From Streptomyces sp. CG1 (GTDB lineage Bacteria > Actinomycetota > Actinomycetes > Streptomycetales > Streptomycetaceae), in NCBI RefSeq assembly GCF_041080625.1, contig NZ_CP163518.1, forward strand, positions 5,208,001-5,272,000: 64,000 nucleotides of DNA, in the 5' to 3' direction. A program made the translations under genes and the position numbers. The notes beneath the pieces were generated by a model that made no database searches, was not told the DNA's origin, and saw only the letters and a list, made by a program, of their open reading frames with translations. Of this stretch, positions 24,052 through 39,318 are shown in pieces; within the stretch, counting starts at the first letter, position 1, and each line of letters begins with the position of its first letter.

Positions 24052-24924
24052 ATGGCCACCTCCGACCGGCAGGCCACGACGCTGGCCCTCGCACACGCCC
24101 TGTCAGCCGCCGAACGCGGCCTGGCCGTCATCCCCCTGTCCCGGACGAAGCTCCCGGCCCTGCGCTCTCCCCACCGCGACGACCCCGACCCGGCCGGAGC
24201 GCGCTGCCACGGCGAGTGCGGCCGCTTCGGCCACGGTGTGTACGACGCCTCGACCGACCCGGTCCGGATCCGCGAGCTGTTCGCCGCCGCACCCTGGGCC
24301 ACCGGCTACGGCATCGCGTGCGGGCTGCCGCCGTACCAGCTGATCGGCATCGACCTGGACACCAAGTGCGGCACCGACTCCTCGACCGCGCTGCGCGAAC
24401 TGGCCCTGCGCCACCTGTTCACGATTCCGGAGACGGTCGTCGTCCGCACGCCGAGCGGCGGGCGTCACCTGTGGCTCACCGGCCCGCCGGACGTCGTCGT
24501 ACCGAACTCGGCCGGCCGGCTCGCCCCTGGGATCGACATCCGCGGCGCCGGCGGCTATCTCGTGGGCCCCGGCTCCCGCACCGAGCACGGCGAGTACACG
24601 ACCGCCCCCGGCACCGCGCATCTGGCCCCCGCGCCCTGTCCGCCCTCCCTGCTGCGTCTGCTCGTGCCACCGCCCCGGCCCCCGCAGCCGGCCCCGTCGG
24701 CTCCGGGTGACCACGGCCGCGGCCTCGTCCAGTTCGTTCTCTCCGCACACGAGGGTCAGCGCAACACCCGGCTGTTCTGGGCGGCATGCCGCGCCTACGA
24801 GAACGGCATCGGCCCCGCCCTGGTCGATCCCCTGACCGAAGCGGCTCGGGGCACCGGCCTGTCGGAACACGAGGCCCGGGCGACGATCGCCTCGGCGGCA
24901 CGGATGACAGGCCACCGGCCGTGA
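24052..24924 (+). CDS. Bifunctional DNA primase/polymerase (Prim-Pol) domain protein
   Basis: A 290-residue protein with the plasmid/phage-type Prim-Pol core at about 12-195: LIGIDLDTK (metal-binding Asp pair), VVVRTPSGGRHLWL (catalytic His) and APGIDIRGAGGYLVGPGS. A short helical C-terminus follows (NTRLFWAACRAYENG); no helicase domain. The family synthesises primers on plasmids and phages. This one lies on the chromosome side of tRNA-Ser(UGA), so it may be a fossil of an older element or a domesticated gene. Confidence 0.85.
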   Translation: MATSDRQATTLALAHALSAAERGLAVIPLSRTKLPALRSPHRDDPDPAGARCHGECGRFGHGVYDASTDPVRIRELFAAAPWATGYGIACGLPPYQLIGIDLDTKCGTDSSTALRELALRHLFTIPETVVVRTPSGGRHLWLTGPPDVVVPNSAGRLAPGIDIRGAGGYLVGPGSRTEHGEYTTAPGTAHLAPAPCPPSLLRLLVPPPRPPQPAPSAPGDHGRGLVQFVLSAHEGQRNTRLFWAACRAYENGIGPALVDPLTEAARGTGLSEHEARATIASAARMTGHRP

Positions 24925-24991
24925 CCACCGGAAACCCGGCCCGGCACGCGAAAGGGACGCCCCCTTCGGAGACGCCCCTTCCCAACATCCG

Positions 24992-25076
24992 CGGTGGGTG
25001 TGGGATTTGAACCCACGGTGACTCGCGCCACGACGGTTTTCAAGACCGTTCCCTTAGGCCGCTCGGGCAACCCACC
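24992..25076 (-). tRNA. tRNA-Ser (anticodon TGA), hybrid at AICE left end
   Basis: An 85-nt class II tRNA: acceptor GGTGGGT/ACCCACC, anticodon loop CTTGAAA, long variable arm, T loop GGTTCAAATCC. The 5' half (25037-25076) belongs to the sequence duplicated at the far end of the AICE, so this gene joins a chromosomal 3' half to an element-derived 5' half. Confidence 0.93.
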
Positions 25077-25118
25077 TCACTCCCGTCCACCTGGGACGGA
25101 GCGGCTACAGCCTACCGG
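25037..25118. repeat. Left att copy of AICE (82 bp)
   Basis: Matches 39237-39318 with 2 mismatches (positions 25105 and 25112); the first 68 bp are identical. It runs from the anticodon loop of tRNA-Ser across its 5' half and about 42 bp of upstream sequence. Confidence 0.9.
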
Positions 25119-26053
25119 TCTCCGGCCTCGCGCGGGGTCCGTGGTCCACACGGGGTCCACTGGCTCCGGGCCGCCCAAGATCACCTCTCGGATCAACCGT
25201 GGCCCAAGGGCCGCGCCGACACCGCAGAAGCCTAATGCGGTGCTGGCCCCATCCGAGATCGCGGGTCTTCGCTGGTCCCCGTGTCTGTGATCACCTGCCG
25301 CGTTTTCATGGCGCAAGGGCATGAGCGGGCTCCTGCATCTTCTGATCCGTAGGATCGGGCGGGCTGTTGGACGGGGGCTCTGCCTTTCTCCCGGATGATC
25401 GCTGGTGGTCGTGATCAACGGTCTCTGCGTGCCGTCGTTGCCGTCAGGGTTGCCGTCAGCTCCGGACGGTGGCACCGCCTGACAACGACCGTATGTGAAC
25501 TGGTGAAAGTGGCTGTGAGCGGCGAACTCGCTGCGTGCGCAGCACTTCAGGCACAGCCCGGCTGTCGGATCCCAGCTGATGCTTGACACAGGCACAGCCC
25601 GGCACAGCCCGGCCGCAAGTGACAACTTTCTCTATTGGTTCAAGGCGGCTCGCCCTGCTCGCCGCGCGCGGTACGGCCCCCGGCCGGGACTGTGCTCCTA
25701 ATGGCGCCCCCGCTCCAGCCGATGATGTCCCGCCACGTGGCGTAATAGCGATCACCGCATAGCCCCTGGTCACGGGGCAGCCATCCGCACAACTCTCCGA
25801 GTAGAGAAGCTCGTTGAAGCGAGAAGTGACGCGATGGCCTTGCCCCGGCATGCCTTACTCCGCCTGATGGAGTCACTGCGTATGGCGGACGGAACGGGTT
25901 GATCAGGGTCCTGGTCCAGCGGACCCTGCAAGAACTCATCTAGGCCACGAGGCCGATTACAAGTAGTACCGCCGCAACAATCCCGAGTGGCGCCATCCCT
26001 CGATTCATGTTAAGAACGTGGTATTCGGCCATCTGAGTGAAAGGTGATGCTCG
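25119..26053. other. Left arm of AICE, no clear gene
   Basis: About 0.9 kb without a convincing ORF. It contains TGGTCCAC (25142) and GGGTCCAC (25153) 11 bp apart near the att core, and repeated GGCACAGCCC units near 25551, 25591 and 25601. These may be integrase arm sites and a transfer-associated repeat. Confidence 0.5.
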
Positions 26054-26278
26054 ATGCATACTCGACGAGCCAGAACCTTCGCGGTTGGCGCCGTCTCTGC
26101 TCTGCTCGTTACCGGCGTTGCGGCCGTTTCCAGCATCCCGGCCTTCGCGGCTTCCGTATCGGGCCGTACCGTAGCAACTTCAACGAGTACCCAGTCCAAA
26201 GCGCGTCCTGACGATGTCTGCTACCGGTGGTACTACGACTCGGACGGTAATTACGTGTCCACGTCATGGAACTGCTGA
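26054..26278 (+). CDS. Small secreted peptide precursor
   Basis: A 74-residue protein with a clear signal peptide (RRARTFAVGAVSALLVTGVA, cleavage near AFA-AS). The mature region is 40 residues and ends DDVCYRWYYDSDGNYVSTSW NC: two Cys with aromatic residues between. GAAAGGTG precedes ATG 26054 by about 8 nt. No family recognised. It lies in the AICE cargo zone, so it may be an extracellular effector or a lysis/exclusion peptide (speculative). Confidence 0.65.
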   Translation: MHTRRARTFAVGAVSALLVTGVAAVSSIPAFAASVSGRTVATSTSTQSKARPDDVCYRWYYDSDGNYVSTSWNC

Positions 26279-26839
26279 ACGGACACCCCATCCCCCTAGT
26301 TCCCGGCGAATCAGGACTGCCCAAGCCCGTTGGTTCGTGTGGGTGCGTTCCGGAGGTCGTCCTGGCGTGGAAGTCCCGTGCGGGCCTCCACGCCGGCGGC
26401 ACCATCCCGCAACTTGCGACGTGTGTAGCGCATAAGTTGGGCGGTGGTCGACCGGAATCTCTACCTGCCCAAGTCCCAGACTGTCCGGTATGCGATATGC
26501 CGGAAGCGCTGGCCTCGCGCGGGCAGCGATGCAAGCCGACGCCCACCTGGTGCTCACCAAGGGCGGCTCACGCTGGCCTGGAATTCTGATGGCCACGGAG
26601 GAAAATCGCCGACCGCCCACTTGGGCGCCCCAACGGCCGTCGACACGTACGCGGCCGGGGTCCACCCGGGGGCCTCATCACGGGCGGCAACTTTTGCCGC
26701 GTCCTTCGGGCGCAAGACGGCGCGGCGACTGCCAGGGCCGGCAACTGCAGGGATTGACACTTATGCCCCACGCGACGACAATATTAGCAAACAGGGACGA
26801 ATGCGAGGTAAGACTCCGCATACCGACCTGGGAGGGATC
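26279..26839. other. AICE cargo-zone gap
   Basis: About 560 bp. Several overlapping open frames exist on both strands, but none has both a ribosome site and coding-like composition. I see no gene. Confidence 0.4.
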
Positions 26840-27118
26840 ATGGTTCTCTGGGGAACGAGCCGTCGGGTTCAAGAACTCATGACAGTTAACATGAACTGTA
26901 AGAACTGCCAGAGAAGTACGATACACAGCCTTCGGTACGCACAGAAGAAATTTACCTTGTACTTCATTCCCCTAGCTCCGTTGAGCACTCAACACTATTT
27001 GCAATGTAATGTGTGTGGTGCTACAAGCGAGATCACCAAGGATCGCGCCACGGAGCTTCAGCAGCAGAAGGAAATGGACCAGAAGTCCGGTCCGTTGCCA
27101 GGTGATACTCCGCAATAG
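26840..27118 (+). CDS. Zinc-ribbon protein
   Basis: A 92-residue protein. After a variable N-terminus the zinc ribbon reads MNCKNCQRSTIHSLRYAQ (first CxxC), KKFTLYFIPLAPLSTQHY and LQCNVCGATSEI (second CxxC), the layout of zinc-ribbon-15-like domains. A charged tail (ATELQQQKEMDQKSG) follows. GGGAGGG lies 4 nt before ATG 26840. G+C is visibly lower than the host. It lies 23 bp before the 247-aa gene and probably forms an operon with it. Confidence 0.75.
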   Translation: MVLWGTSRRVQELMTVNMNCKNCQRSTIHSLRYAQKKFTLYFIPLAPLSTQHYLQCNVCGATSEITKDRATELQQQKEMDQKSGPLPGDTPQ

Positions 27119-27141
27119 CAGGACGCCAGGACAAGATTGCA

Positions 27142-27885
27142 ATGATTCCCCTCATTGTTCTGCACGCACTCAAAGCGCCGGCAGCCTCTGGCGCCAAGTG
27201 CGCGCTTAGCAAGCTGTTCGGGCTGGAAGCAGAGCAAGCCAAAACGCTGAACAGGATTGAGACTAAAATCGATGCCAGCCTGCAGAGTTCATACAATCAG
27301 GGCCTAATATACCTCCAAGACGCCATCAGCGAAACCGACAGCATGCCTCGTCAGCGCGATTACTTGGAGAAAGCAGAATCCCGACTTATCGAGGCGGTCG
27401 CGAATTTCGAAACCATTGATCCGATGCGCAGCGCCTGGGCGGCCATATACCTTACCATGATCTGCAAAATAAATGACAACTCAGCTGGCGCGGGGCGATG
27501 GGCCCTGCGGGCATATAGGGCCTCAGTGAGCGGTGTACAACAGCAGTGTGAACTGATTAACCGCAGTATCGATACCCAAATCGGCAAGAGGCTGAAGGTA
27601 ACAGGAAAAGGTTCATCTGCGCTGACAGGGGTTGCTGCAGGTGCTTTTTGGCCCGTAGGTATACCAGCCTGGGTCAGCATAAACATATACCGAAAGCATC
27701 GCATTAGAGAAGGCCGTGCCACTCTTACCGAACTCGATCAGTTCAGTGATCAGCTGCAAGAAGCAGCGGTACTATTGACGGGTCAACGCGTTCCCGGATA
27801 CTTTCTCGACTTTAACGACGGCACCGGTCGATTTACGTACACTAGACCCATTGTGGTGGATAGTGGACCTGCCCCCCTCGAATAA
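27142..27885 (+). CDS. Unknown AICE cargo protein (247 aa), low G+C
   Basis: No family recognised. The N-terminal 25 residues are hydrophobic to amphipathic (MIPLIVLHALKAPAASGAK). A largely helical body of about 130 residues follows (LNRIETKIDASLQSSYNQG; ISETDSMPRQRDYLEKAE). Next comes a Gly/Ala hydrophobic segment at about 155-180 (SALTGVAAGAFWPVGIPAW) and a C-terminal part with TYTRPIVVDSG. Codon use is far less GC-biased than the backbone, a sign of recent transfer. Paired with a zinc-ribbon gene; a defence or toxin role is possible but not shown. Confidence 0.7.
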   Translation: MIPLIVLHALKAPAASGAKCALSKLFGLEAEQAKTLNRIETKIDASLQSSYNQGLIYLQDAISETDSMPRQRDYLEKAESRLIEAVANFETIDPMRSAWAAIYLTMICKINDNSAGAGRWALRAYRASVSGVQQQCELINRSIDTQIGKRLKVTGKGSSALTGVAAGAFWPVGIPAWVSINIYRKHRIREGRATLTELDQFSDQLQEAAVLLTGQRVPGYFLDFNDGTGRFTYTRPIVVDSGPAPLE

Positions 27886-28135
27886 CGGAGAGAACGTTGA
27901 GTCGCGCAGCGGAGAGTAGCCAGTCACCCAGGGGCATTCCGACCCCCGAAGGCGGGCAAATCGGGCCTAGTGTCTGGATGCCTGGAGTCGTTATGGCACG
28001 GCCAAGTCCTTACTGACTTCAACGACGTCGGGCGGTGGCGTACAAGAGCACCCCTGTCCAATCCGGCACGGCGACGGGGGACAGCGCCAGGACCAGCCCC
28101 TGATCGAACTCCTAAAGCGCGTATCGCAGGTTCGA

Positions 28136-28606
28136 TCAGCCAAGATAGGGCCGCTCACGGTGCTCCAGGAAGTGACGGATTCGGAGCCGCTGTGTGTGAT
28201 GCATCGGCAGTTGATCGATCTCCTCCGGCTGGACGAACCGCAGTTCCGTGGACTCGTCCGAGATCGCGAGTCGGCCGCCGACCACGCGGGCGGTGAAGCA
28301 GACGTTGAACTGTCTGCGAACCTCACCATCCGAATAGGCAATGATGTGGCGAGGGTCGGTGTACGTGCCCACGAGCCCAGTGATCTCTACGTCCAGACCC
28401 GTTTCCTCCTTCACCTCGCGGACGGCCGTTCCCGGGAGTGAGTCGGTCATCTCCAGGCCGCCACCAGGGAGCGCCCAAAGATCGTTGTCCCGGCGGCGCT
28501 GAAGGAGCACGCGCCCTTCGTCGTCGGTCACCACGGCGGACGCGGCGACCACCAAGCTGTTCGGCTCAGGTGCCGCTGGGTCGTCGTAGTACTCGGTCCG
28601 TGCCAT
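28136..28606 (-). CDS. Nudix hydrolase (AICE accessory)
   Basis: A 156-residue Nudix protein. The Nudix box GGGLEMTDSLPGTAVREV then KEETGL (about 48-70) keeps REVKEETG but has Ser in place of the first Glu position. Flanking strands SLVVAASAVVTDDEGRVLLQ and ALPGG are typical. Nudix enzymes cleave nucleoside diphosphate-X compounds; the substrate is unknown. GAAGG is 7 nt before ATG 28606, which is 2 bp after the stop of the XRE-PLD gene. Nudix genes near the regulatory region are a recurrent AICE feature. Confidence 0.88.
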   Translation of the reverse strand: MARTEYYDDPAAPEPNSLVVAASAVVTDDEGRVLLQRRRDNDLWALPGGGLEMTDSLPGTAVREVKEETGLDVEITGLVGTYTDPRHIIAYSDGEVRRQFNVCFTARVVGGRLAISDESTELRFVQPEEIDQLPMHHTQRLRIRHFLEHRERPYLG

Positions 28607-28608
28607 GG

Positions 28609-29352
28609 TCACCCTTCTCGTACCGGCGTCGCGGTCTCCCACACCGCGTCGAAGCTGCTGGCGTAGGTGTCGAACATGCCGCCCTCTCCGTTGCGCCGAA
28701 GATGCCACACGGGAGCACCGTAGGCGTTCACGCCCCAAACATGGGCATTGACCAGCGCCTGGTCATCCGCACGATAGATCGAGTTGTAGAGCGTGGTTGC
28801 ATGGGTCCGCACCTCGATGCCGGGCACCCCGGCAAGGGGGCGATAGTGCATGAGAGCGAGTCGGCAACGGGACTCGATCCCGTGGCCGAACCTCTCTTCC
28901 TGGCCACGCTGTTGGACATTCACACTGTCCGGGTCGCCAACTGCGATACGGACCGCGCACCCGTCGGCAGCTCGCTCTCGCAACAGCTCGTTGAGTCGCG
29001 GGTACGCCTCGTGCAAGAAGACGGCGGCATACACCAGCACGTCGATGTGCTCGCGAGCCTGGGTCAGCAGGTCCACGAAGGTGGACACGGGGATGTCCGC
29101 CCGCTGGTCGTAGAGCGCCACAAGTTCCGGGCTGACAGCGCGGGCGGGGCGCGCCTGTCGGAGCGATGGCCAAAGAGCGTGCACGTCTTCTCCCAGTGTT
29201 TCCGCTGCCAGCATGGCCGTGGCACGGCGCGGCGTACGCCCCAGGTTGACCCAGCGCTCAACGGACTTGAGGTCGACCTTGACCTTGTCCGCAAGGGTCG
29301 CGTACGTCCAACCGCCGGCCGCTATAGCGGCACGTAGCCTCTCGTTCGGCAT
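28609..29352 (-). CDS. XRE-type HTH regulator with C-terminal PLD-like domain
   Basis: A 247-residue protein. The N-terminal helix-turn-helix (about 3-60) includes LADKVKVDLKSVERWVNLGR. A C-terminal domain (about 85-235) resembles the phospholipase D-like fold of bacterial XRE fusions: TFVDLLTQAREHIDVLVYA, NELLRERAADGCAVRIAVGD and a second half with SIYRADDQALVNAHVWG. No HxK catalytic motif was found, so this is probably a ligand-sensing module. ATG 29352 has GGGAGAG 5 nt upstream. It forms an operon with the Nudix gene. Confidence 0.8.
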   Translation of the reverse strand: MPNERLRAAIAAGGWTYATLADKVKVDLKSVERWVNLGRTPRRATAMLAAETLGEDVHALWPSLRQARPARAVSPELVALYDQRADIPVSTFVDLLTQAREHIDVLVYAAVFLHEAYPRLNELLRERAADGCAVRIAVGDPDSVNVQQRGQEERFGHGIESRCRLALMHYRPLAGVPGIEVRTHATTLYNSIYRADDQALVNAHVWGVNAYGAPVWHLRRNGEGGMFDTYASSFDAVWETATPVREG

Positions 29353-29471
29353 CTCAGTCTCTCCCTGCATCCGAGGACGGCACTAGGGACGTTCTACCTG
29401 ACGCGGGACGTCCCGAAGTGGTGCTTGGGGGAGGTTCCAACGTCCTGTCGAACTGCCGGATGCTCCTGTAC

Positions 29472-29843
29472 ATGGGCAGCGACAGGACAGCGAGTCCTCG
29501 AACGGACATGGACGTGGATGAGATCAAGGCGACGATCACCAAAGCCCTGACTGAGCGCTCTGCGTTGCCCCCGTACGAGGATCTGTGCGCGTTGCACCAG
29601 GACTTGGTGCGGCACATCGAGGCGCTGACGCCGTTGGCAGCAAAGCGGGTTGATCGTCTGTGGCGTGGCTCGGTGGAGTGGTATCAGAAGCGTCGCAGGC
29701 TGGACACCGTCCCGCATGAGGTGGGTCGAGGCCTGGGCCCTGGGTTGCAGTCGGCCGCCTGGCACGTGAAGAGCCTGGGCTACACCCTGCGGTTCCTCTT
29801 GGAGAACGCCGATTTGGCTGGGACGGGAGAGGACGCGCACTGA
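29472..29843 (+). CDS. DUF6415-like small protein
   Basis: A 123-residue helical protein: MDVDEIKATITKALTERS, ALPPYEDLCALHQDLVRHIE, then LWRGSVEWYQKRRRLDTV and a basic, Gly-rich middle. The pattern recalls the Streptomyces DUF6415 group, found on mobile elements and near regulators. ATG 29508 is an equally possible start; neither has a strong ribosome site. It is divergent from the XRE-PLD gene. Function unknown. Confidence 0.55.
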   Translation: MGSDRTASPRTDMDVDEIKATITKALTERSALPPYEDLCALHQDLVRHIEALTPLAAKRVDRLWRGSVEWYQKRRRLDTVPHEVGRGLGPGLQSAAWHVKSLGYTLRFLLENADLAGTGEDAH

Positions 29844-29900
29844 GGCGGCAGTACAGCCACGCGTACCGGAAGACCGGGCCGTGCTGAACAACTGCAGATG

Positions 29901-30137
29901 CAAGTCCGGACCACCCCCGCGCCTGGCAGCAACCGGGGTGGTCCGGTGAGGAGTCCCAGTTCAGGACCCCGGTGCCGATGGTACCGGGGCGGTTGGCGTG
30001 CTCGGATGCGAGTGCTGCCGCAACCCCGGCTTCACGTGATCGAGTTGGAGAGGGGTTCTGACGTGAGCCACAGAAAGTCAGCCACGACGGCGGGTGCGCC
30101 GAACGAGCACCCGCCACGTGTGTTGCAGCAACCCCGC
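29901..30137. repeat. Two-hairpin block, copy 2
   Basis: Same architecture as 7245-7480: a 12-bp hairpin (29906-29917 / 29935-29946) and a second hairpin (29967-29976 / 29980-29989, one G-T wobble). Then AGAGGGG precedes GTG 30063, and the conserved GAGCCACAGAAAGTCAGCCA follows. Several differences between the copies preserve pairing. Confidence 0.7.
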
Positions 30138-30660
30138 GCCGGCCTCAGCCACGCTTCTTCATCCGTCACGGTGGCCATCTCGATCCGGCCTGGGCGTTGC
30201 CAAGTGCCATGGTGGCTGGGCTCGGATGACGCTGTCGGCCAAGCGGCCTGGAGCAACGGACGGTTGGGCGGCACAGCCGTGCTTAGTGTGTGTCGGCCTG
30301 GTCCTGGTGCTCGAAGCAGTCGGGTTACTTCCTGGTCCGGCTGTCCGCCTCGGCGATGGTGCGCGCTGAGCGGGTGGGGGCCGCCGGAGCGGTGGCGGAG
30401 ACATGGAGCGGTGGCGGCCACGGGCCGCCAGCGCGCGCGGGCCGCCGTAGGCGGGCCGCCTTGATCCAGTAAAGAAACTCTGAACAGCTCCGCAGGGCAG
30501 GGCAGGGCACGCAGGGCAGGGCAACGCGAGAGACACGCGACCGCACGGCCAACAAGCGCCGGACCTGCACTAGAGGACCTGTCAGGCAAGTGATCAAGCA
30601 GGGCCCCGGCGGCTCGAGCTAGCACCTACGCAACGACGGCACGGCGGCAAACGAGGAGCG
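30138..30660. other. AICE intergenic region with GC-rich tandem repeat
   Basis: No gene could be supported. A GGGCA/GCAGG tandem repeat lies at about 30492-30522, shortly before the small coiled-coil gene. Confidence 0.45.
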
Positions 30661-30888
30661 ATGGCCGAGCACATACCGGACAGCGAAATGGGGTTGACCA
30701 GCATTCACGTCGGGGACGCAGAACAGGTGACCGCTCTGATCAAAGAGATGCGGGCCATGGTCGGTCGCCTCAGCAGGGAGACCAGAGAGTTGCGAGAGGA
30801 AGTGGCCAAGCTCAGAGCTACGGCTTCGCCTGCTGGGCAGCCTTCAGCTCCTCGACCTCACGCCGCAGTTCCTGATGATCAGCACTGA
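30661..30888 (+). CDS. Small coiled-coil protein convergent with GntR
   Basis: A 75-residue protein with an excellent start (ACGAGGAGCG then ATG). Residues about 22-52 form a heptad coil: VTALIKEMRAMVGRLSRETR ELREEVAKLRA. The tail is Pro/Ala-rich. Its last 71 nt overlap, antisense, the 3' end of the GntR gene. The GntR C-terminus has a similar coil (LRDEIRALSADHQELRREVE), so the two proteins may interact. Confidence is moderate because of the antisense overlap. Confidence 0.55.
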   Translation: MAEHIPDSEMGLTSIHVGDAEQVTALIKEMRAMVGRLSRETRELREEVAKLRATASPAGQPSAPRPHAAVPDDQH

Positions 30889-31300
30889 GGGCACGGATCT
30901 CGTCTCGTAGGGCTGTGAGCATTTCAGTGAGGGTGGCGCCGGCGGCTTCAGCGTCGTCGGGCCTTCCCCCCGCTTGCTCTGCCTCGCTCGGCTTCTCGCC
31001 CCTGTTCGCCAAGTACCAGGCAGGCGCGTTGTAGTTCGCTGAGGACTCGCCGCTGCCATCGTGGTCTGCGACGAAGCTGCCCCGACCGTGGATCGTGTAG
31101 ATCAAGCCTTCATCGCGCAGCAGGTTGAGCGCGGACCTCATGGTCATGTTGGCCACGCCAAAGCGTTCCTGTAGCTCGCGAATGGCCGGCAACTGCTCGC
31201 CCGGCTTGATCCGCCCCTGCAAGATCTCGCGCCGGAGCTCGTCGGCAGCGTGCTGATACGGCGGCCGACGGTCCTGCTTGCTCTCTGGCGCGGGGCTCAT
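30818..31300 (-). CDS. GntR-family AICE repressor (KorSA-like)
   Basis: A 160-residue regulator. The N-terminal GntR winged helix (about 10-80) reads YQHAADELRREILQGRIKPG, EQLPAIRELQERFGVANMTM, LLRDEGLIYTIHGRGSFV. The short C-terminal part holds a coiled coil (about 125-155) instead of a large effector domain. In pSAM2 the GntR protein KorSA represses transfer and replication genes. Here it is divergent from the SCO3933-family and transfer genes and separated from them by repeated CCTAGC boxes. ATG 31300 has a weak ribosome site. Confidence 0.85.
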   Translation of the reverse strand: MSPAPESKQDRRPPYQHAADELRREILQGRIKPGEQLPAIRELQERFGVANMTMRSALNLLRDEGLIYTIHGRGSFVADHDGSGESSANYNAPAWYLANRGEKPSEAEQAGGRPDDAEAAGATLTEMLTALRDEIRALSADHQELRREVEELKAAQQAKP

Positions 31301-31318
31301 GGCCCAAGAGTATCGAGT

Positions 31319-31403
31319 CCTAGCACGCCTAGCACACCCCACTGACATAGGTGGCCTATGCCAAATGACACCTAGCTCACTCCACTCACTTGACTCTGCT
31401 AGG
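31319..31403. promoter_or_regulatory. Putative GntR operator array
   Basis: CCTAGCAC occurs twice as a direct repeat (31319-31326, 31328-31335), with related CCTAGCTC (31371-31378) and inverted GCTAGG (31398-31403), all between the divergent GntR and transfer-side genes. A TATGTT -10-like hexamer follows at 31409. The arrangement suits autoregulation and control of the transfer operon by the GntR protein. Confidence 0.5.
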
Positions 31404-31471
31404 TCAGCTATGTTCAATGGTGATCACGCCCCACCGCCCTGGTGGAGCGCAACCGAAAGGACGCAACTCCC

Positions 31472-31822
31472 ATGGCACGCATCCGTGTTGGCCTGCTCCC
31501 CACCTCGTCGTTCATGGTCGGAACCCTGCCGGTGCCGAAGTACGCGGACGCCGAGAAGACTCAGTTCGCGACCGACCGCGAGACCGGCGCGAAGCTCTAC
31601 ACGATCACCCTCTTCTTCATGGAGGAGGACCGCGCCGAGGCCCTGAAGATCACCGTTCCGGAGACCGGTCTCCCCAACGGTCTCCGGCCCGGTGTCCCGG
31701 TCATGCCGGTGGAGCTGTTCGCCACCCCGTGGGCGCGGATCTTCAACGGCTCGCTGTCGGACGGCATCGCCTACCGCGCTGATCGGCTGGACCTGGTGGC
31801 CTCGGCCGCTGAGGCGGCGTGA
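31472..31822 (+). CDS. SCO3933-family regulatory protein
   Basis: A 116-residue protein beginning MARIRVGLLPTSSFMVGTLP. It contains FATDRETGAKLYTITLFFME, LKITVPETGLPNGLRPGVPV and a C-terminal YRADRLDL. This matches, from memory, the SCO3933 family of small regulators carried by Streptomyces integrative elements upstream of the tra gene. AAAGGA lies about 10 nt before ATG 31472. It is the first gene of the tra-rep-int run. Confidence 0.75.
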   Translation: MARIRVGLLPTSSFMVGTLPVPKYADAEKTQFATDRETGAKLYTITLFFMEEDRAEALKITVPETGLPNGLRPGVPVMPVELFATPWARIFNGSLSDGIAYRADRLDLVASAAEAA

Positions 31823-32031
31823 GCGGCACGGATTTCCGGTCCGGCGCTGAGCGCAGCTACCCGCTGCCTCACGCCGGGCCGGATGCCCGGTTCACCGAAT
31901 CGCTCGTGAACTCGGTGGCGGCCGTGCTCGTCGGCTACGGCTATCCCCGCCTCGGCTCCTCGGCGGATCGGGCGGCCCTCGAATCGGCCCTCGTGACCTT
32001 CCTCTACAACTCCCCGGAGAACCACGCATGA
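31819..32031 (+). CDS. Small AICE backbone protein (70 aa)
   Basis: Starts at GTG 31819 overlapping the previous stop (GTGA) and ends overlapping the next ATG (ATGA), so it is translationally locked into the operon. The central segment is helical (LVNSVAAVLVGYGYPRLG; ADRAALESALVTFLYN). No named family recognised; the position is typical of pSAM2-like elements. Confidence 0.75.
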   Translation: MSGTDFRSGAERSYPLPHAGPDARFTESLVNSVAAVLVGYGYPRLGSSADRAALESALVTFLYNSPENHA

Positions 32032-33443
32032 AGGATCAGAACGCCCTGGCTGAAGGGGTCGTCGGCCACACACCCCTATTCGTCGTCCTGGTGCTCGCCG
32101 TGATCGTCGGCTGGGCGGTGTGGTGGGTGGTCCGCTACCTGCGCGCCGACGCCATGACCCGGCAGTCCATCCGGCAGGCCGTACGTGTGCGGTGGGGCTG
32201 GAAGCGGCTCGCACCGATGCTCAAGCTGTCGGTCACGGACAAGACCCCGACCGCGCTGGCAACGCTGGCGAACACGAACGGCAAGCCCATCAAGCCCCGT
32301 ATCCTCATACCCGCCCTGCGGGTGACGCACGACGCGTACGGAGTGATCGCACGGGCGCGGTGCCTGCCCGGCGTGGGCCTCCAACAGTTCCAGAAGGCTG
32401 CCCCACATCTGGCGGACGCCTGGCGGTGCACACGGGTGGCGGTCACCCAGGACAAGCCGGGGCAGGTCCTCATCCGGGGCGTGCGCCTCGATCCGCTGAA
32501 GTTTCCCACCGAGCACCGACCCACAGGTGATGTGCCGGACGAGACGGCTCGGTGGGACCTGGGTGTGGACGAGTACGCCCAACCGGTGTCCGTGGACCTT
32601 ACGCAGGTGCCCGGCGTGACCGTGGCCGGCCTGCCCGGCTTCGGAAAGACCAGCCTGGTCAACCGACTTCTGTCGGACTGGGCACCCTCGCCTGCGGTGC
32701 AGTTCGCCTGTGCGGACGGCAAGGTCTCGGCTGCGTACGAGGGTGACTACGCCGACTGGGTGCAGCGCATGTTCGCGTTCGTGGGCGATGACCTGGAAGA
32801 AGCCAACAAGCTGTTCCGTCACCTCGTGGAACTTCGCCGTGCACGATCGGCCTCGGTGCGCTCGGTGCTCGGCGTGAAATCCATGTGGGACGTCGGCCCG
32901 TCCGACCGCTGGCCGCTGGTCGTGCTGATCATCGACGAAGCCCACACCTACTTCCGCGACCACAAGGGCAGCGACCCGAAGACCAAGAAGCTCGCCGCGC
33001 TGGCCGCCGAAAACGCCCGGCTCGTCGAAGACCTGGTGAAGAAGGGCCGTTCCGTGGGCCTGCTCGTCATCCTCACCACCCAGAAGTCCACCGGCGACGC
33101 GATCCCGACCTTCATCCGGGATGTGTGCCCCGTGGGCCTGAGCTTCGCGCAGAAGACCGCCGAAGCAGCAGTAGCCGCGCTCGGCGAAGAGATCCGGGAA
33201 TGGCCGGACGCCAACCCGATCAACCTCCAGGACCCCACCTATGTCGGCGTCGCGTCCATGAACCACCAGTCCCAACCCGGCTTCACCCGCATCCGCACGC
33301 CGTACGTGCCGGACGCGGACGCGGCCCGCATCGCCGAGCAGACCGCGAGCCTCACCGCCGGCCCTTACACCCTCCTCGAAGCCGTCCTCGGCCCCCGCAT
33401 GGGGGAGTTGGACCTCGTCAAAGCCGACTCCGAATCGGCCTGA
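32028..33443 (+). CDS. FtsK/SpoIIIE-type DNA translocase (TraB/TraSA-like transfer protein)
   Basis: A 471-residue AAA+ protein. A single TM segment (about 14-34, FVVLVLAVIVGWAVWWVVRY) precedes a linker and the FtsK motor: Walker A GLPGFGKTS (about 204-212), Walker B VVLIIDEAHTYF (about 300), then LVKKGRSVGLLVILTTQKST. Actinomycete Tra proteins of this kind move double-stranded DNA between hyphae as a hexameric pump, without relaxase or type IV secretion. It recognises clt repeats, not identified here. Confidence 0.92.
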   Translation: MKDQNALAEGVVGHTPLFVVLVLAVIVGWAVWWVVRYLRADAMTRQSIRQAVRVRWGWKRLAPMLKLSVTDKTPTALATLANTNGKPIKPRILIPALRVTHDAYGVIARARCLPGVGLQQFQKAAPHLADAWRCTRVAVTQDKPGQVLIRGVRLDPLKFPTEHRPTGDVPDETARWDLGVDEYAQPVSVDLTQVPGVTVAGLPGFGKTSLVNRLLSDWAPSPAVQFACADGKVSAAYEGDYADWVQRMFAFVGDDLEEANKLFRHLVELRRARSASVRSVLGVKSMWDVGPSDRWPLVVLIIDEAHTYFRDHKGSDPKTKKLAALAAENARLVEDLVKKGRSVGLLVILTTQKSTGDAIPTFIRDVCPVGLSFAQKTAEAAVAALGEEIREWPDANPINLQDPTYVGVASMNHQSQPGFTRIRTPYVPDADAARIAEQTASLTAGPYTLLEAVLGPRMGELDLVKADSESA

Positions 33444-33494
33444 CCACCCCGGCCCTGCACAGTCACGGCGCCACCCGAGAGGAGGTGAACACCC

Positions 33495-34199
33495 ATGACA
33501 GAGGACCGGATCACTCAGCGCACCATCACCGCCGTCGTGATCGTCATTGCCGCGCTGGCGTTCGTCTTCTCTTTCGGAAACGTCTGGTCTCTCGCCCTGC
33601 GCCTAGGCGTCCCCGCCCCGATCGCACCGCTCATCGCTCCGATGGTGGACCTGTCCGTGGTCGGCCTCCTGGTCGCCCTGCGCTACCTCTCCCTTCACGG
33701 TCTGCCCGCCGAACAGATGACGGCGGCCACCCGGCTCATGCACTTCTCCGGACTGCTGACCCTGGCGCTCAACGTCGCCGAACCGATCGTCGCCGGACAC
33801 TACGGCCGTGCCGCCGTGGACGCCGTGGCCCCGCTACTCCTACTCGGCTGGGGCGCCGTCGGCCCGCAGCTCCTGCGCGCCTTCCACACAGTCTCCCGCC
33901 CGGCCAACCTGAACTCCACGCCGGACGAGGCAGGGCCGCAAGCCGATACGACGCCCGCCCCGGCTGCCCCCAGGGCATTGCCCGCCCCGCCGGAACGGAC
34001 CCCCGTGCCGGTCGCTCCCCTCGCCGCCCCGGCTCCGGCCGCGCCTGCGGTCGAGGTACCTGAGCCGCTGCTCGCCGAAGCGCGTTCCATCGCCGCCTCC
34101 CACCACGCCGAGTACGGCGACAACATCACACCGGCCCAGCTCAAGAGGCGACTCGGTATCGGCCTTCCCATGGCCACCGCTCTCCACGCCGCCTTGTAG
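33495..34199 (+). CDS. DUF2637 membrane protein (SpdB-like spread protein)
   Basis: A 234-residue protein with four membrane segments: ITAVVIVIAALAFVFSF, IAPMVDLSVVGLLVALRY, FSGLLTLALNVAEPIVAG and AVDAVAPLLLLGWGAVGP. A Pro/Ala-rich linker (about 135-190) leads to a short C-terminal helix-turn-helix-like piece (ITPAQLKRRLGIGLPMATAL). DUF2637/SpdB proteins act in intramycelial spreading of the element. GAGGAGG lies 9 nt before ATG 33495. Confidence 0.88.
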   Translation: MTEDRITQRTITAVVIVIAALAFVFSFGNVWSLALRLGVPAPIAPLIAPMVDLSVVGLLVALRYLSLHGLPAEQMTAATRLMHFSGLLTLALNVAEPIVAGHYGRAAVDAVAPLLLLGWGAVGPQLLRAFHTVSRPANLNSTPDEAGPQADTTPAPAAPRALPAPPERTPVPVAPLAAPAPAAPAVEVPEPLLAEARSIAASHHAEYGDNITPAQLKRRLGIGLPMATALHAAL

Positions 34200-34349
34200 C
34201 GCCGTGCCCTCCGCCGGCCTTCCCGGCACCTCCCACCCATGCCCGTCCCTGGGCCCATCCCGTCATGCCTGCGGACAGCAGCCCGAGCGCACTGAATCGC
34301 TGCTGCCCGCAGGTCTCACCCTCGCGCCGGAAAGGAGACCCCGCCACTC

Positions 34350-35810
34350 ATGCGCCGCCCCCTCGACCTGCGGCACGTCGTCAGCCCCGGCCTGCGGGAC
34401 CTGATCGAATTGGCCAACACCCACGACTTCGACCGCGTCAACGAACAGGTCCGCAACCTGCGCGGCTGCACCCGCCCCGTCAACCTCCACGGCTGGACGG
34501 TCACCACCGACCAGGCCACCAAGGAAGTGGTCCGCTCCTACCGTTCCGAAGACGAGCCCTCCGGCCGCCTCCTCACCGTCTGCGGCAACCGCCGCGCCTC
34601 CCGCTGCCCCGCCTGCTCCCGCGTCTACGCCGCCGACACCTACCACCTCATCAAGGCGGGGCTGTCCGGCGGCAAGAACGTCGCCGAAACCGTCCGCGAC
34701 CACCCTCGCGCCTTCGTCACCCTCACCGCCCCCTCCTTCGGCCCCGTCCACAACCGCCCCACCACCGACGCGGGCAAACCGCGCTCCTGCGCCTGCGGTG
34801 ACACCCACGCCGAAGACGCTCCCGAACTCGGCACCCCGCTGAACCCATCCACCTACGACTACGCCGGGGCCGTGCTCTGGAACGCGCACGCCGGACAGCT
34901 CTGGGCACGATTCACCACCTACCTGCGCCGCGCCCTGGCCGAACACCTCGGCATGACGCAGAAGGCACTGACCGCCGCCCTCCGCGTCTCCTTCGCCAAG
35001 GTCGCCGAATACCAGAAGCGCGGCCTGGTCCACTTCCACGCCGTGATCCGCTTCGACGGACCCGACGGCCACACCACCGAGCCTCCGGCCTGGGCCACCT
35101 TCGACGCTCTCAACGTCGCCGTGGGCCTGGCCGTCGAGCGTGCACGGCTCACCATCGACTCAGACGGCATCGGCGAACGCGGCATCACCTGGGGCGACCG
35201 GTACAAGGTCGACCCCATCTCCGCCCTGGGCGACGGTGAACTCACCGATGCCAAGGTCGCCGGATACGTCGCCAAGTACGCCACCAAGAACGCCGAAGGC
35301 ACGGGCACTGTCGACCGCACCCTGATCTGCCGCCCCTGCACCGGGCGCGGCTACGTACGCGGCCCCGACCGCTTCCACGATCGGTGCGCCGACTGTGACG
35401 GCACCGGACAGGCCGAACCCATCAAGGCCCTGCCCGTCCAGCACCACGTACGGCAGATGATCCGCACCGCCTGGGCCCTCGGCCACCTGCCGGAGTTCGC
35501 CGAACTCAAGCTCTGGAAGTGGGCCCACATGCTCGGATTCCGCGGCCACTTCTCCAGCAAATCCCGCGCCTACTCCACCACCCTCGGCGCACTCCGCGAC
35601 GTACGCCGCGCCTGGCGCCTCGCCCAGGCCGAAGCCACCCGTACCCGCGCCGGCCTCCCCACCGCCGACGAGACCACCCTCGTCACCGCCTCCTCCTGGA
35701 CCTACCTCAGCAGCGGCTACCGCCCCGGCGAAGAACTCCTCGCCGCGCAGGTCCGCCACGACATCGCCCACGCCCAACGCATCAAGTCCGAAGGAGATCC
35801 CTGGCTGTGA
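34350..35810 (+). CDS. AICE replication initiator (RepSA-like)
   Basis: A 486-residue rolling-circle-type initiator of the pSAM2/pIJ101-like group. It has a zinc cluster CGNRRASRCPACSRVYAADT near residue 75, FVTLTAPSFG near 128, the histidine motif GLVHFHAVIRFDG near 228, and the YVAKYATKNAEG motif near 310 with the candidate nicking Tyr. A second CRPCTGRGY...CADCDGTG zinc site is near 335. AAAGGAG is 13 nt before ATG 34350, rather far. Confidence 0.88.
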   Translation: MRRPLDLRHVVSPGLRDLIELANTHDFDRVNEQVRNLRGCTRPVNLHGWTVTTDQATKEVVRSYRSEDEPSGRLLTVCGNRRASRCPACSRVYAADTYHLIKAGLSGGKNVAETVRDHPRAFVTLTAPSFGPVHNRPTTDAGKPRSCACGDTHAEDAPELGTPLNPSTYDYAGAVLWNAHAGQLWARFTTYLRRALAEHLGMTQKALTAALRVSFAKVAEYQKRGLVHFHAVIRFDGPDGHTTEPPAWATFDALNVAVGLAVERARLTIDSDGIGERGITWGDRYKVDPISALGDGELTDAKVAGYVAKYATKNAEGTGTVDRTLICRPCTGRGYVRGPDRFHDRCADCDGTGQAEPIKALPVQHHVRQMIRTAWALGHLPEFAELKLWKWAHMLGFRGHFSSKSRAYSTTLGALRDVRRAWRLAQAEATRTRAGLPTADETTLVTASSWTYLSSGYRPGEELLAAQVRHDIAHAQRIKSEGDPWL

Positions 35811-36013
35811 CCACTCCAACCAAGGCCAACAGGCAGACGCTGAAGCTGGGGGAAGCACTGGCTGAGATCGGGGTGTCCCGCGCCGCCTTCTACCGCATGC
35901 GCGCGCGGGGCCAGGCCCCAAGGCACCTGAAGCTCCCCAACGGTCAGATCCGCATACGCCGGGCCGACCTCGACGCCTGGTTCGACTCCTGCGAGGTGCA
36001 GGAAGCGTGCTGA
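35807..36013 (+). CDS. xis: Excisionase (Xis), HTH_17 type
   Basis: A 68-residue protein with a MerR-like winged helix: LKLGEALAEIGVSRAAFYRM, RARGQAPRHLKLPNGQIRIR, RADLDAWF. It overlaps the Rep stop (GTG 35807 in GTGA) and the Int start by 7 nt, the rep-xis-int order of pSAM2. AAGGAG is 10 nt upstream. Xis bends att DNA and directs the integrase towards excision. Confidence 0.9.
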   Translation: MTTPTKANRQTLKLGEALAEIGVSRAAFYRMRARGQAPRHLKLPNGQIRIRRADLDAWFDSCEVQEAC

Positions 36014-37401
36014 CCTACGACGTGCAGATCTGGGGCATCCGCAAGCGGCCCAACCGTTCCGCGGCCTATCAGCTCCGCTGGCGGGTCGGTCCCCGGCCCT
36101 TCTCCAAGAGCTACAAGATCAAGGCTCAGGCCGACGGTCGACGCTCGGAGCTGCTGGCTGCCCTGCGCAACCGTGAGCAGTTCGACACGGAAACCGGCCT
36201 GCCTGCCTCGGAGGTGCAAGCGCTCAACTCCACCACCTGGTACGCCCACACACGCACCTATGCGGAGATGAAGTGGCCCAGTGCCTCGGCCAAGCACCGC
36301 GCAAGCATCGCTGACACGCTGGCCACCATCACGCCGAAGCTGGTCAAGGACAACCGTGGGGCTCCGGCTCCCAAGGTCCTCCGCATCGCTCTCTACTCGT
36401 GGGTCTACCGCTTCGTCCTCAGCGACGACGGGACGCTGAAGCCCCGCATCGACGTCGAGGAGCCGCCCGCCGACATCGTGTCGGCGCTGGACTGGATCAG
36501 CCGGAAGTCCGTCGACATCACCGCGCTCAACACGCCCTCGGTTGTGCGTACGGCGCTCGACGCTCTGAAGCTGAAGCAAGACGGCACGGCCGCTGCCGAG
36601 AACACGGTGAATCGCAAGCGAACGGTCTTCAGCAACTGCCTCCGGTACGCGGTGGAACGGGAGTTGCTGGCGACCCTGCCCCTCGACAAGGTCGACTGGA
36701 CACCGCCCGAAACTGACGACGAGATCGACTTTCGGTTCGTACCTGGCCCGAAGCTGGCGAAGGCGCTGATCGACGCTGTAGGCGAGCAGGGGTCACGGGG
36801 ACGGCACCTGATGGCGTTCTTCGGCTGCCTCTACTACGCGGCCAACCGCCCTGGGGAGGCAGCCAATCTCCGGGAAGACGACTTCACCTTGCCCGAAGAG
36901 GGCTGGGGTGAAGTATTGCTGTCGACGAGCACGCCTCGCGTTGGCTCAGGGTGGACCGACACGGGCGAGTCGTTCGATACGCGCGGCCTAAAAAAGCGGG
37001 CCCGCAAGGCGATCCGGCCTGTGCCGATTCCCCCCGTCCTCGTGCGTCTGGTCCGCGAGCACATCAAGGAATTCGGTACCGCTGAGGACGGCCGGCTGTT
37101 CCGTGCGGCCCAGGGCGGCGGCCTGCTGTCCAAGGAGTACGGGGAGGTTTGGAAAGCGGCTCGACTCGCGGCGCTGACCGAATCTGAAGCGGCTTCCCCC
37201 CTGGCTGACGTGCCGTACTCCCTGCGCCATGCGGGCGTCTCGCTCTGGCTTGAGTCTGGCGTCTCCCCGGCGGAAGTCGCACGCCGGGCAGGTCACAGCA
37301 TCGCAGTCCTGTTCCGCTTCTACGCCAAGGCGATCCATCGCAACCAGCAGCGTGCGAACGAACAGATTGAGCGGGCCTTGGAGGCTGACGACGGGGAATA
37401 G
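36007..37401 (+). CDS. int: Tyrosine site-specific integrase
   Basis: A 464-residue recombinase from GTG 36007. N-terminal arm-binding and core-binding domains (to about 230) precede the catalytic domain: Arg I in YYAANRPGEAANL (about 280), RPVPIPPVLVRLV, HxxR box YSLRHAGVSLWLESG (about 410), AGHS, and the nucleophile in FRFYAKAI (about 440). It should recombine the att copies in tRNA-Ser(UGA). Confidence 0.93.
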   Translation: MLTYDVQIWGIRKRPNRSAAYQLRWRVGPRPFSKSYKIKAQADGRRSELLAALRNREQFDTETGLPASEVQALNSTTWYAHTRTYAEMKWPSASAKHRASIADTLATITPKLVKDNRGAPAPKVLRIALYSWVYRFVLSDDGTLKPRIDVEEPPADIVSALDWISRKSVDITALNTPSVVRTALDALKLKQDGTAAAENTVNRKRTVFSNCLRYAVERELLATLPLDKVDWTPPETDDEIDFRFVPGPKLAKALIDAVGEQGSRGRHLMAFFGCLYYAANRPGEAANLREDDFTLPEEGWGEVLLSTSTPRVGSGWTDTGESFDTRGLKKRARKAIRPVPIPPVLVRLVREHIKEFGTAEDGRLFRAAQGGGLLSKEYGEVWKAARLAALTESEAASPLADVPYSLRHAGVSLWLESGVSPAEVARRAGHSIAVLFRFYAKAIHRNQQRANEQIERALEADDGE

Positions 37402-37668
37402 ACTCAGCGGCACTCCGAGCACAGGCGCCATCCTCACCCTTACCGGGAGAGAGTGGCGCCTTCTCGCTGTCCTGGATATGGTCCGGGTTCCGGACCGTAC
37501 TAGAGCCTGTCCGGCCGATCATGTGAAGCCATAGCGCTGCGTTGCCCGCAGGAATCGCGCCCGGGATCGGCAGTTCCTAGACTGGTTGGGTGGTCAGTAG
37601 AAAGAATTACGCCCGACTGACCGTCACAGGCGCGCTTTGATCTGCAGCGTGTTAACGAGGCGAGCGGC
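37402..37668. other. Gap after int
   Basis: 267 bp without a clear gene or strong hairpin. It probably holds the promoter of the 424-residue cargo gene. Confidence 0.4.
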
Positions 37669-38943
37669 ATGCCCTATGACATACGTATCACCGGGATCGA
37701 TACATGGGACCAGCTCACGCAAGGGGATTTGGGGATCGTCATTGATCCGCTTGTCTTCCGTCTCGGGCAGTTCTTCCTCGCAGGCAAACCGCATGACGAC
37801 TCCGTGGCGGCTGAGCGCTGGGGAGCGATTGAGGCCGACCTCGGCGCTCTGGTGAGCTTCTTCGACTTGGTCGTGATGCACAAACAGCTACCTGCCTTCA
37901 ACTACTACGACACGTTCGACGGACGGCTCGACTTCCGCGACTTCCTAGGGGAGCTTCTCAACACGCACGGCGACCAGACCTTGGTGCATGTGGACGTCGA
38001 GCACGCCATGTATCGGGAGGTGAAGCAAGCTGCCATCCATCAGCTCAGCAGGCGGCTCGAGGAGGATGCCCTGGTCCATCCGTCGGTCGGCCAGGAGATC
38101 CTATCCACGCTTGCGGCGGTCCAGTACCAGTGGGAACCCAGCCTGGAGACGCTGGAACCCCAGCTCGCCGCCGACGCCGATCAGGTCAAGATCGCGCGGT
38201 TCCTGCTCGGACAGCTAGTCTTCGCAGGCTATGCCCAGCTGACCGGGGCACCCCATGTCCTCGCCCCGAAACGCAGCCGGATGCTGACCGCCGTCGGTCT
38301 CGGAGCCGAGGATGCGAGGCCATCCGGGGAGGCCGCGATCTACGACGAGCTGAGTCGGCGATTCCGCGAAGCAGGAGAAGGGTGGCGTGACACGGAATTG
38401 CCCTGGACCCCCTCGTTCCTGCCCTTCCTCCTGAAGCGTATTGAACGCTTTCAGGAAGGCCCGGATGTCCTGCTTGATGCCGCCAAGGAACTGCGGGACA
38501 AGAAGGCGATCCAGCACTACCGCGACCTCCAAGAAGCGCTCGTTTCCAAGGAGCCAGAGGACTCCGACGGCGCACGCAGAGAGCTGAGCGCCGCGGCGGA
38601 CGCAGTGGCGAAAACGTTGGACTCAACTCGTGAGGAGATGCAACTCCAGAAGCGGATAGTGGTCGAGGTGTTGCCGAAGGCCATTGGCGCAGCAGGCGGC
38701 GCGGTGGTGGGAGCCGTCGCGGCGGGTCCGCCGGGCGCTGTTGTTGGCGCGCTTGCTGGAGTCATGGGCGAAGAGGTGCTCAAGGCGGTGCATGGCCGGT
38801 TGTGGGGATGGGTCATCGACCAGTTGCCGTATCGCAGCGCGCGTAAGCTGCTGACTCGGTCCGCCAAAGCGGAGTATGACCTGGGGCCGCAACTGGTGCC
38901 GCAGCTGAGAACGGTATGGGAAACGGGGCGGCGGGCGAGCTGA
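37669..38943 (+). CDS. Unknown AICE cargo protein with C-terminal glycine-zipper segment
   Basis: A 424-residue protein; no family recognised. The N-terminal 60 residues look globular (YDIRITGIDTWDQLTQGDLG), and a mostly helical body follows with YYDTFDGRLDFRDFLGEL. Coil-prone sequence (about 290-330) precedes a Gly/Ala zipper (about 343-370: AIGAAGGAVVGAVAAGPPGA, VVGALAGVMG), typical of membrane-inserting or oligomerising helices. GAGGCG lies 6 nt before ATG 37669. It lies between int and the right att copy, a usual place for self-contained cargo such as defence genes (inference). Confidence 0.75.
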   Translation: MPYDIRITGIDTWDQLTQGDLGIVIDPLVFRLGQFFLAGKPHDDSVAAERWGAIEADLGALVSFFDLVVMHKQLPAFNYYDTFDGRLDFRDFLGELLNTHGDQTLVHVDVEHAMYREVKQAAIHQLSRRLEEDALVHPSVGQEILSTLAAVQYQWEPSLETLEPQLAADADQVKIARFLLGQLVFAGYAQLTGAPHVLAPKRSRMLTAVGLGAEDARPSGEAAIYDELSRRFREAGEGWRDTELPWTPSFLPFLLKRIERFQEGPDVLLDAAKELRDKKAIQHYRDLQEALVSKEPEDSDGARRELSAAADAVAKTLDSTREEMQLQKRIVVEVLPKAIGAAGGAVVGAVAAGPPGAVVGALAGVMGEEVLKAVHGRLWGWVIDQLPYRSARKLLTRSAKAEYDLGPQLVPQLRTVWETGRRAS

Positions 38944-39236
38944 GCTTCGCACGCACAGGAGCCCCGAGCGTCCGGTGACGATGCACTCACATGTCGGCCG
39001 GACTGGTCCTAGGCTAGGCCGCTGACCAGCGGGTTCCCAGCTAGCATCCGCCGGTTCTTGGTCCACGCCTGGTCCACACGCACTGATCTACAACGCGACA
39101 GGGCCGGATCAAGGTGGGACAGACCCCATACAGAAGGGGCGCCCCTCACCGAGGGACACCCCTTCTGACCAGCACGTCTATGACCTGCGGAGGCAGTGCG
39201 GTCCGAGCCCACGGAGACGCTTTCGCGTCCTCACGT
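38944..39236. other. Right arm of AICE with putative Int arm sites and terminator
   Basis: TGGTCCAC occurs at 39059-39066 and 39070-39077, 11 bp apart, mirroring the 11-bp pair near the left att. A hairpin with AGAAGGGG/CCCCTTCT outer arms lies at about 39132-39166 and could terminate transcription before the att core. Confidence 0.5.
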
Positions 39237-39318
39237 TTTTCAAGACCGTTCCCTTAGGCCGCTCGGGCAACCCACCTCACTCCCGTCCACCTGGGACGGA
39301 GCGGGTACAGCGTACCGG
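39237..39318. repeat. Right att copy of AICE (82 bp)
   Basis: 82 bp matching 25037-25118 except at two positions. It contains the 5' half of tRNA-Ser and its upstream sequence with a TACGCT -10-like hexamer (minus strand). The 3' half of the tRNA is missing here. Confidence 0.9.

Follow-up and report, generated by a model that had tools for sequence, protein, structure and literature searches.

Integration into a transfer RNA (tRNA) gene usually leaves the promoter in place and swaps the 3' end; what, then, becomes of the host when an element takes the promoter region of a tRNA gene that is apparently present in a single copy? The question is raised by a 64,000-nucleotide stretch of DNA from Streptomyces sp. 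CG1 (assembly GCF_041080625.1, contig NZ_CP163518.1, positions 5,208,001 to 5,272,000; hereafter the window), in which a pSAM2-like integrative element adjoins tRNA-Ser(UGA), whose codon is presumably a rare one in GC-rich genomes of this kind. Comparison of the window with related genomes and loci (designated by the prefixes G and L, respectively) led to an answer that we regard as probable, namely that the attachment site (attP) of the element bears a tRNA gene split over its two ends, that integration swaps the promoter of tRNA-Ser(UGA), and that the left ends of such elements persist as relics.

The element is bounded by two copies of one tRNA segment, the coordinates of which are collected with those of all other features in Table 1. 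The left and right copies, each of 82 bp, differ at two positions only (25105 and 25112), in agreement with the first-pass annotation, which had recorded the match and its TAnGCT hexamer; each copy spans the anticodon loop, the tRNA 5' half and some 42 bp of upstream DNA that includes this -10-like hexamer. Over a longer stretch both belong to a 124-nt direct-repeat family (85%), the only direct repeats longer than 30 nt between 24000 and 40500. ARAGORN found the junction tRNA alone in the interval 24991–39318, and thereby no separate complete tRNA gene inside the element. The first-pass annotation had also excluded the tRNA 3' half from what the element duplicates, a claim that had to be given up: the right end does carry one, albeit broken (4/7 acceptor pairs and 4/5 T-stem pairs), and ARAGORN calls no tRNA at the right copy. 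An element without any 3' half is thereby ruled out. The geometry is that of a 5'-fragment island, with an intact tRNA at the near junction and a displaced 5' fragment of the tRNA gene at the far one; in the pSAM2-type arrangement attP restores the tRNA 3' end, whereas in the window it is the 5' half that is restored and the element's 3' half that is broken.

When the tRNA together with its leader was used as a query against its own genome (E ≤ 0.001), no second intact tRNA-Ser(UGA) was seen, since just four places matched and only one of these, the junction tRNA, was intact; apart from it there were the right copy, a match of 75% and, at 7.72 Mb, a relic of the 5' half. The relic (L003, G000:C1:7720128-7720209) comprises a promoter and the 5' half of tRNA-Ser(UGA), after which come a degraded 3' half and TGACGGCAAC repeats resembling those at 25437–25458 of the window.

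The native side of the insertion was identified from an element-free relative, G146 (L006/L104), in which the order is HtrA, promoter, tRNA-Ser and PrimPol, with HtrA about 220 bp upstream of the tRNA and PrimPol at 152 bp. The sequence upstream of this tRNA (...GGACGTTCGATCCCGGTACGCTGTACCC) matches the right copy of the window and its flank from 39319 onward, not the DNA from 25119 onward, and the native upstream DNA has consequently been displaced by the element end. A relative with 25119 onward as its native upstream DNA had been named in the first-pass annotation as the counter-example to look for; G146 rules out that assignment, and supports the proposal made there that the 5' half and promoter region of the tRNA come from the element and its 3' half from the chromosome. 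The -10-like hexamer lies within the duplicated segment, and beyond it, on the upstream side of the working tRNA, all DNA belongs to the element. When the window flanks are joined at the core, a complete tRNA-Ser(UGA) is recreated behind the TACGCT promoter, so that the element is not needed for a complete gene: as far as the joined flanks can tell, the promoter is exchanged and the gene is not lost.

Which of the two junction tRNAs is kept was assessed in 17 loci with both junctions read, 14 of them on one contig and 3 joining unlinked contigs. Left out of this set were G202 (tandem elements, contigs unlinked), G222 (integrase 60%, left end perhaps that of another element), G207, G210, G217 and G231 (junctions missing, unlinked or elsewhere), and G110 (host-side junction not found). 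With 'intact' defined as 7/7 acceptor, 5/5 T-stem and at least 4 anticodon-stem pairs, the left copy alone was intact in 7 loci (including the window), the right copy alone in 8, and both in 2, in each of which the left -10 was mutated; there was no locus with neither. The outcome followed the acceptor stem of the host: GGTGGGT hosts (one with GGCGGGT, at a decayed junction) retain the left copy except where the element 3' half matches too, and GGAGGCG, GGAGGTG or GGAAGCG hosts keep the right copy. Across L104–L203, all of one genus, the tRNA-Ser(UGA) acceptor stems observed were GGTGGGT, GGAGGCG, GGAGGTG, GGAAGCG and GGAGACG.

The promoter regions decayed with a corresponding bias. The element -10 (TAnnnT) was kept in all seven loci with a good left copy as against 2/10 of the others (Fisher p = 0.0023, a value to be taken as a guide because the loci share ancestry), and its loss in those others had occurred through 8 different non-TAnnnT hexamers. 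This retention bias supports a real dependence on the element -10 in such hosts. The brokenness of the element 3' half seems to be inherited by element lineage, since the broken 3' halves of G110 and of six of the seven left-only loci (seven genomes in all) form two related kinds; in G238, the seventh left-only locus, the right copy fails by acceptor pairing alone. In the window the host acceptor GGTGGGT makes the left copy pair, so that the tRNA would be read from the element promoter. The earlier suggestion that expression of tRNA-Ser(UGA) may depend on the element can accordingly be retained in part: the bias in -10 retention among relatives favours it, whereas a complete gene behind the host promoter remains without the element, and use of the element promoter is deduced from sequence. 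An opposite view would have little or no expression from the left tRNA, with the hybrid right tRNA doing the work behind the host promoter, as the intact -10 and 5' half retained by the right copy of the window might allow; with its acceptor and T stems incompletely paired and no ARAGORN call, against full pairing in the left copy, this view is scarcely credible.

That the split tRNA gene belongs to the element was examined through 49 loci that encode related integrases; 45 of these come from 44 genomes, which were searched for the tRNA. An intact-structure tRNA was located on the integrase side in 34 of the 49, before HtrA where the locus includes HtrA, and in these loci the element is read as supplying the 3' half, the classical arrangement. 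In eight loci with integrases 60–86% identical (L049, L053, L054, L058, L063, L067, L077 and L081) the left end lies inside the locus and has a 3' half only. Left ends with promoter and 5' half were associated with integrases or integrase fragments 92–98% identical (L035, L037–L043, L046–L048, L070, L075, L078 and L080, some of these ends being on unlinked contigs); they consist of paired GTGGACC motifs, the putative element promoter (P1) and the tRNA 5' half, and adjoin a 3' half that belongs to the host or to an element next to it. The comparison did not extend to the left ends of four other close relatives (L036, L044, L045 and L055). By these sequence relationships the window element is a member of a sub-lineage, with integrases at least 92% identical, that has promoter and 5' half on the left and a 3' half on the right. 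The crossover falls at the anticodon loop, and sharing across it is confined to the 3' half in the classical relatives and to the 5' half in the window. Relic integrase fragments 79–88% identical also accompany P1 left ends (L132 and L151).

GTGGACC pairs with 11-bp spacing were also present at the right ends of the window lineage and of most elements with integrases ~69–86% identical, as they were at six left ends among these last elements, at distances to the core of about 94 and 83 bp as against about 117 and 106 bp here. We infer that the pairs are arm-type sites bound by the integrase, in which case promoter and 5' half would lie between the arm sites and the core. An internal segment common to some left ends resembles the right end of another element, which hints at, although it does not prove, capture of the 5' half by excision with a neighbouring tRNA. 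Tandem or neighbouring elements were observed in L097, L132 and L149, the left end of one joining the right end of another through the tRNA core.

The wider occurrence of the two promoter types, P1 and the P2 type of the host, was surveyed in 120 loci from 100 of 199 same-genus and 20 of 51 other-genus genomes. The proportions of P1 and P2 among the 100 are biased because these loci were taken from ranked match lists (80 + 20); strict patterns, less biased but prone to miss variants, detected P1 in 59 and P2 in 44 of the 199 same-genus genomes. HtrA was found in 117/120 survey loci, always upstream of the tRNA. In the other-genus loci the tRNA started no more than 100 bp from the end of the HtrA match in 17/20, without P1, and a P2-like motif of the TAnnCT type was present in 14/20; as written, this motif was not found in L211, L214, L216, L220 and L222.

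Several loci retain what look like traces of replacement. In four genomes (G204, G205, G240 and G040) the tRNA behind the P2-type host promoter is now broken and the intact one has P1, the host P2-type -10 having been lost in G240 and G040; the order in G040 is HtrA, P2-type promoter with decayed tRNA, and P1 tRNA. In G082 (L148) a 5'-half fossil lies 77 bp after HtrA and 1.3 kb from the P1 tRNA, and the P2 pattern itself gave no match in this fossil. A model of the arm motifs trained on 22 element left ends, with a relic cut-off of p ≤ 0.05, detected a relic in 22/63 further P1 loci (23/64 before removal of L149, the sole test locus identical to a training one), every one of them 119–123 bp from the core, and elsewhere in 1/37 P2 or other loci and in 1/20 outgroup loci, namely L204. 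These left-end relics suggest that the promoter has been replaced repeatedly in Streptomyces. A tree of HtrA from 116 of the 120 survey loci called for at least 19 changes between P1 and not-P1, 11 of them forced by starred branches; the state scored 'P2like' in that tree denotes not P1 by pattern and includes the short-leader P1 variants L162, L164, L165, L167 and L182, plus L204, and HtrA is a single gene adjoining the site with which it may recombine. Hybrid-looking promoters, with a P1-type -10 and a GGAGGCG tRNA, were observed at L099, L183, L199 and L200.

A number of observations weigh against such replacement of host promoters by element ends. At the junctions, three of the 17 pairs join contigs that are unlinked, ARAGORN, being more lenient, calls tRNA-Ser at the copy counted broken in 7/15 one-sided loci, and the pairing pattern is partly built in because survival requires at least one working copy. 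Division of the left ends by integrase is not fully clean, G222 (integrase 60%) having a P1-type left end on another contig, and L204, from another genus, looks P1-like by eye though the script labelled it not P1. The left and right leaders of the window are almost identical (34/35), whereas between species leaders mostly differ (median similarity 0.72, with 10 of 1431 pairs identical); in the window one therefore has to suppose gene conversion, or else that the 5' half arose locally, and perhaps the left leader was homogenised with the host copy. The leaders of L075 are likewise near-identical within their genome, those of L078 are not. Such likeness is what would be expected had the tRNA 5' half and leader been duplicated locally, by homologous or illegitimate recombination, beside an ordinary 3'-half element, with nothing element-borne. 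This explanation is nevertheless a very improbable one, as related elements elsewhere carry promoter and 5' half, at near-constant distance from the GTGGACC pairs, in P2 hosts as well.

The remaining observations of this kind concern the P1 loci. A significant arm relic was lacking in 41/63 of them, and about 3 would pass by chance; among 41 HtrA-tRNA gaps longer than 300 bp, integrase fragments were present in L132 and L151 only, besides the whole element in L149, and most gaps between HtrA and a P1 tRNA hold other genes, not element genes. The gap in L157 gave one weak NUDIX match. It is because so few gaps hold integrase fragments that the argument from relics relies mainly on the arm motifs, and these gap contents rule out that P1 loci as a rule still contain element genes. 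The shortage of arm motifs and of element genes would suit a different history, in which P1 is an old host promoter with native GTGGACC motifs that was captured by elements, the host P1 loci not being relics at all; capture from some host must indeed have occurred at least once. We consider this history rather unlikely. The 11-bp GTGGACC pairs are found at right ends too, as well as on the left of classical elements whose integrases are related, and hence belong to the element family; the other-genus loci described above have the tRNA close to HtrA without P1; the HtrA tree needs many changes; and G040 retains a P2-type promoter with a decayed tRNA ahead of its P1 tRNA, as G082 retains a 5'-half fossil after HtrA.

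Replacement by element ends, as reconstructed here, would proceed as follows. A pSAM2-like element integrates by crossover in the anticodon loop of the sole intact tRNA-Ser(UGA) seen, its attP bearing a split tRNA-like gene with a promoter and 5' half (acceptor GGTGGGT) on the left and a 3' half (probably CGCCTCC ancestrally) on the right. Two hybrids would result: a left one composed of element promoter, element 5' half and host 3' half, and a right one composed of host promoter, host 5' half and element 3' half. The host would retain whichever copy has a pairing acceptor stem and the other would decay, the host promoter in the window now facing a broken 3' half. Excision, if the element is still competent for it, would restore the gene to the host promoter; should the element itself decay first, its left end would remain as the new promoter, a sequence of events that seems to have recurred in Streptomyces. 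A more far-reaching proposition, which in our judgement could go either way, is that the attachment site of one lineage of actinomycete integrative and conjugative elements (AICEs) rescues its target tRNA from either side, supplying promoter and 5' half for one host acceptor allele and the 3' half for another, that the tRNA-Ser(UGA) promoter has been exchanged on many occasions as such elements arrived and decayed, making it domesticated mobile DNA in a large share of Streptomyces species, and that integration and excision act as a promoter switch. The loci would then serve as natural replicates for the study of how tRNA genes tolerate integration and of how attachment sites change side; acceptor pairing would predict the hosts that an element can enter harmlessly, and the question of whether mobile DNA rewires tRNA-Ser(UGA) expression in antibiotic producers is also touched upon.

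Table 1. Positions of the tRNA segments, element features and flanking genes within the window.
Feature	Position	Strand	Evidence or remark
PrimPol gene, chromosomal flank on tRNA 3' side	24052..24924	+	Pfam Prim-Pol 3.2e-37; same place in G146
tRNA-Ser(UGA), intact; 3' half chromosomal, 5' half on element side of crossover	24991..25076	-	ARAGORN; 7/7 acceptor pairs
Left copy of duplicated segment (anticodon loop, tRNA 5' half, leader, -10), read as element-borne	25037..25118	-	
TAGGCT, -10-like hexamer of putative element promoter P1, left copy	25109..25114	-	
pSAM2-like integrative element of 14.1 kb, bounded by the two copies	25119..39236		
GGTCCAC motif pair, left (25143 and 25154, 11 bp apart), putative integrase arm-type sites	25143..25160	+	Same pair in relatives, nearly fixed core distance
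Relic like a decayed tRNA 3' half, then two TGACGGCAAC repeats	25437..25495	-	Partly common to some left ends
NUDIX protein	28136..28738	-	Pfam NUDIX 6.9e-21
GntR regulator	30818..31417	-	Pfam GntR 4e-20
SCO3933-family regulator	31442..31822	+	NCBIfam NF051478, 81.7 bits (cut-off 80)
FtsK/SpoIIIE-type transfer protein	32028..33443	+	Pfam FtsK_SpoIIIE 2.6e-05, 24.2 bits (cut-off 24)
RepSA replication initiator	34350..35810	+	Pfam RepSA 9.6e-149
Excisionase-like HTH protein	35810..36013	+	Pfam HTH_17 2.4e-09; PHROG_66 4.8e-10
Tyrosine integrase	36007..37401	+	PHROG_1 integrase 1.7e-24; Pfam Phage_integrase weak, 0.056
424-aa protein between integrase and right end	37669..38943		No convincing family match
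GGTCCAC motif pair, right (39060 and 39071, 11 bp apart), putative arm-type sites	39060..39077	+	
Broken tRNA-Ser 3' half, borne on right end of element	39188..39236	-	
Right copy (host tRNA 5' half, leader, -10), now preceding broken 3' half	39237..39318	-	Native in element-free G146
TACGCT, -10-like hexamer, right copy	39309..39314	-	
HtrA-like protease gene, chromosomal flank on tRNA 5' side	39345..40958	-	Pfam Trypsin_2 and PDZ_2

The gene content of the element is that of its family. A translocase of the FtsK/TraB type was recognised weakly, the NCBIfam TraB model scoring far under its cut-off; the replication initiator scored 540.5 bits against the NCBIfam RepSA equivalog, under the 700-bit cut-off of that model; and the integrase, which adjoins the excisionase, has its nearest solved chain at E = 0.63. 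The TGACGGCAAC repeats of the internal relic, or neighbouring sequence (25420–25495 of the window), recur in left ends L087, L088, L078 and L172, and the segment may represent a right end from some other element family. The window also contains two tRNA-Ser(GCU) genes that differ from each other, at 10069–10163 and 61743–61830, the first with acceptor GGAGGCG.

Integration on the 5' side of a tRNA gene is known but rare, as the following counts and precedent indicate. Among the 3919 islands of Islander, 159 have a 5' fragment and 3760 a 3' fragment (PMC4383910); the former resemble the window in having a displaced 5' fragment of the tRNA gene, but differ in that the window element carries both halves and its lineage shows decay of one junction tRNA or the other, and the word 'promoter' is absent from the text of PMC4383910. 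With very few exceptions, rebuilt bacterial tRNA genes are stated to use the original promoter, whereas the archaeal pTN3-like integrases use the 5' half, and transcription of the reconstituted tRNA is then driven by the promoter of the integrase, an arrangement said to be infrequent among bacteria (PMC8371274). Those systems are unlike the window in being archaeal with a suicidal integrase, and the account of them in that source describes no additional 3' half. In the tRNA-dependent lysogeny of mycobacteriophages, as presented in PMC10865867, an element-borne tRNA function makes integration at a single-copy tRNA gene tolerable; there the phage has a separate tRNA gene, whereas in the window the attachment site itself bears the parts. 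In our searches of open-licence papers we recognised no report of promoter replacement by an AICE at a Streptomyces tRNA, and none of an attachment site with both halves, of acceptor-dependent decay or of recurrent promoter replacement. Accretion of AICEs, with tandem elements and remnants at one tRNA, is by contrast described (PMC9513070), and the junctions in L097, L132 and L149 are of this kind, although promoter replacement is not among the features presented in the relevant account. The closest comparison remains that with AICEs of the pSAM2 type. Elements of this class with a tyrosine integrase lie in the vast majority of cases in the 3' end of a tRNA gene (PMC3218068), and the window element shares with the pSAM2 type its RepSA, an FtsK-type protein, an HTH excisionase beside a tyrosine integrase, NUDIX and GntR proteins and a tRNA target; it differs from them in restoring the 5' half and promoter region of that target while its own 3' half is broken.

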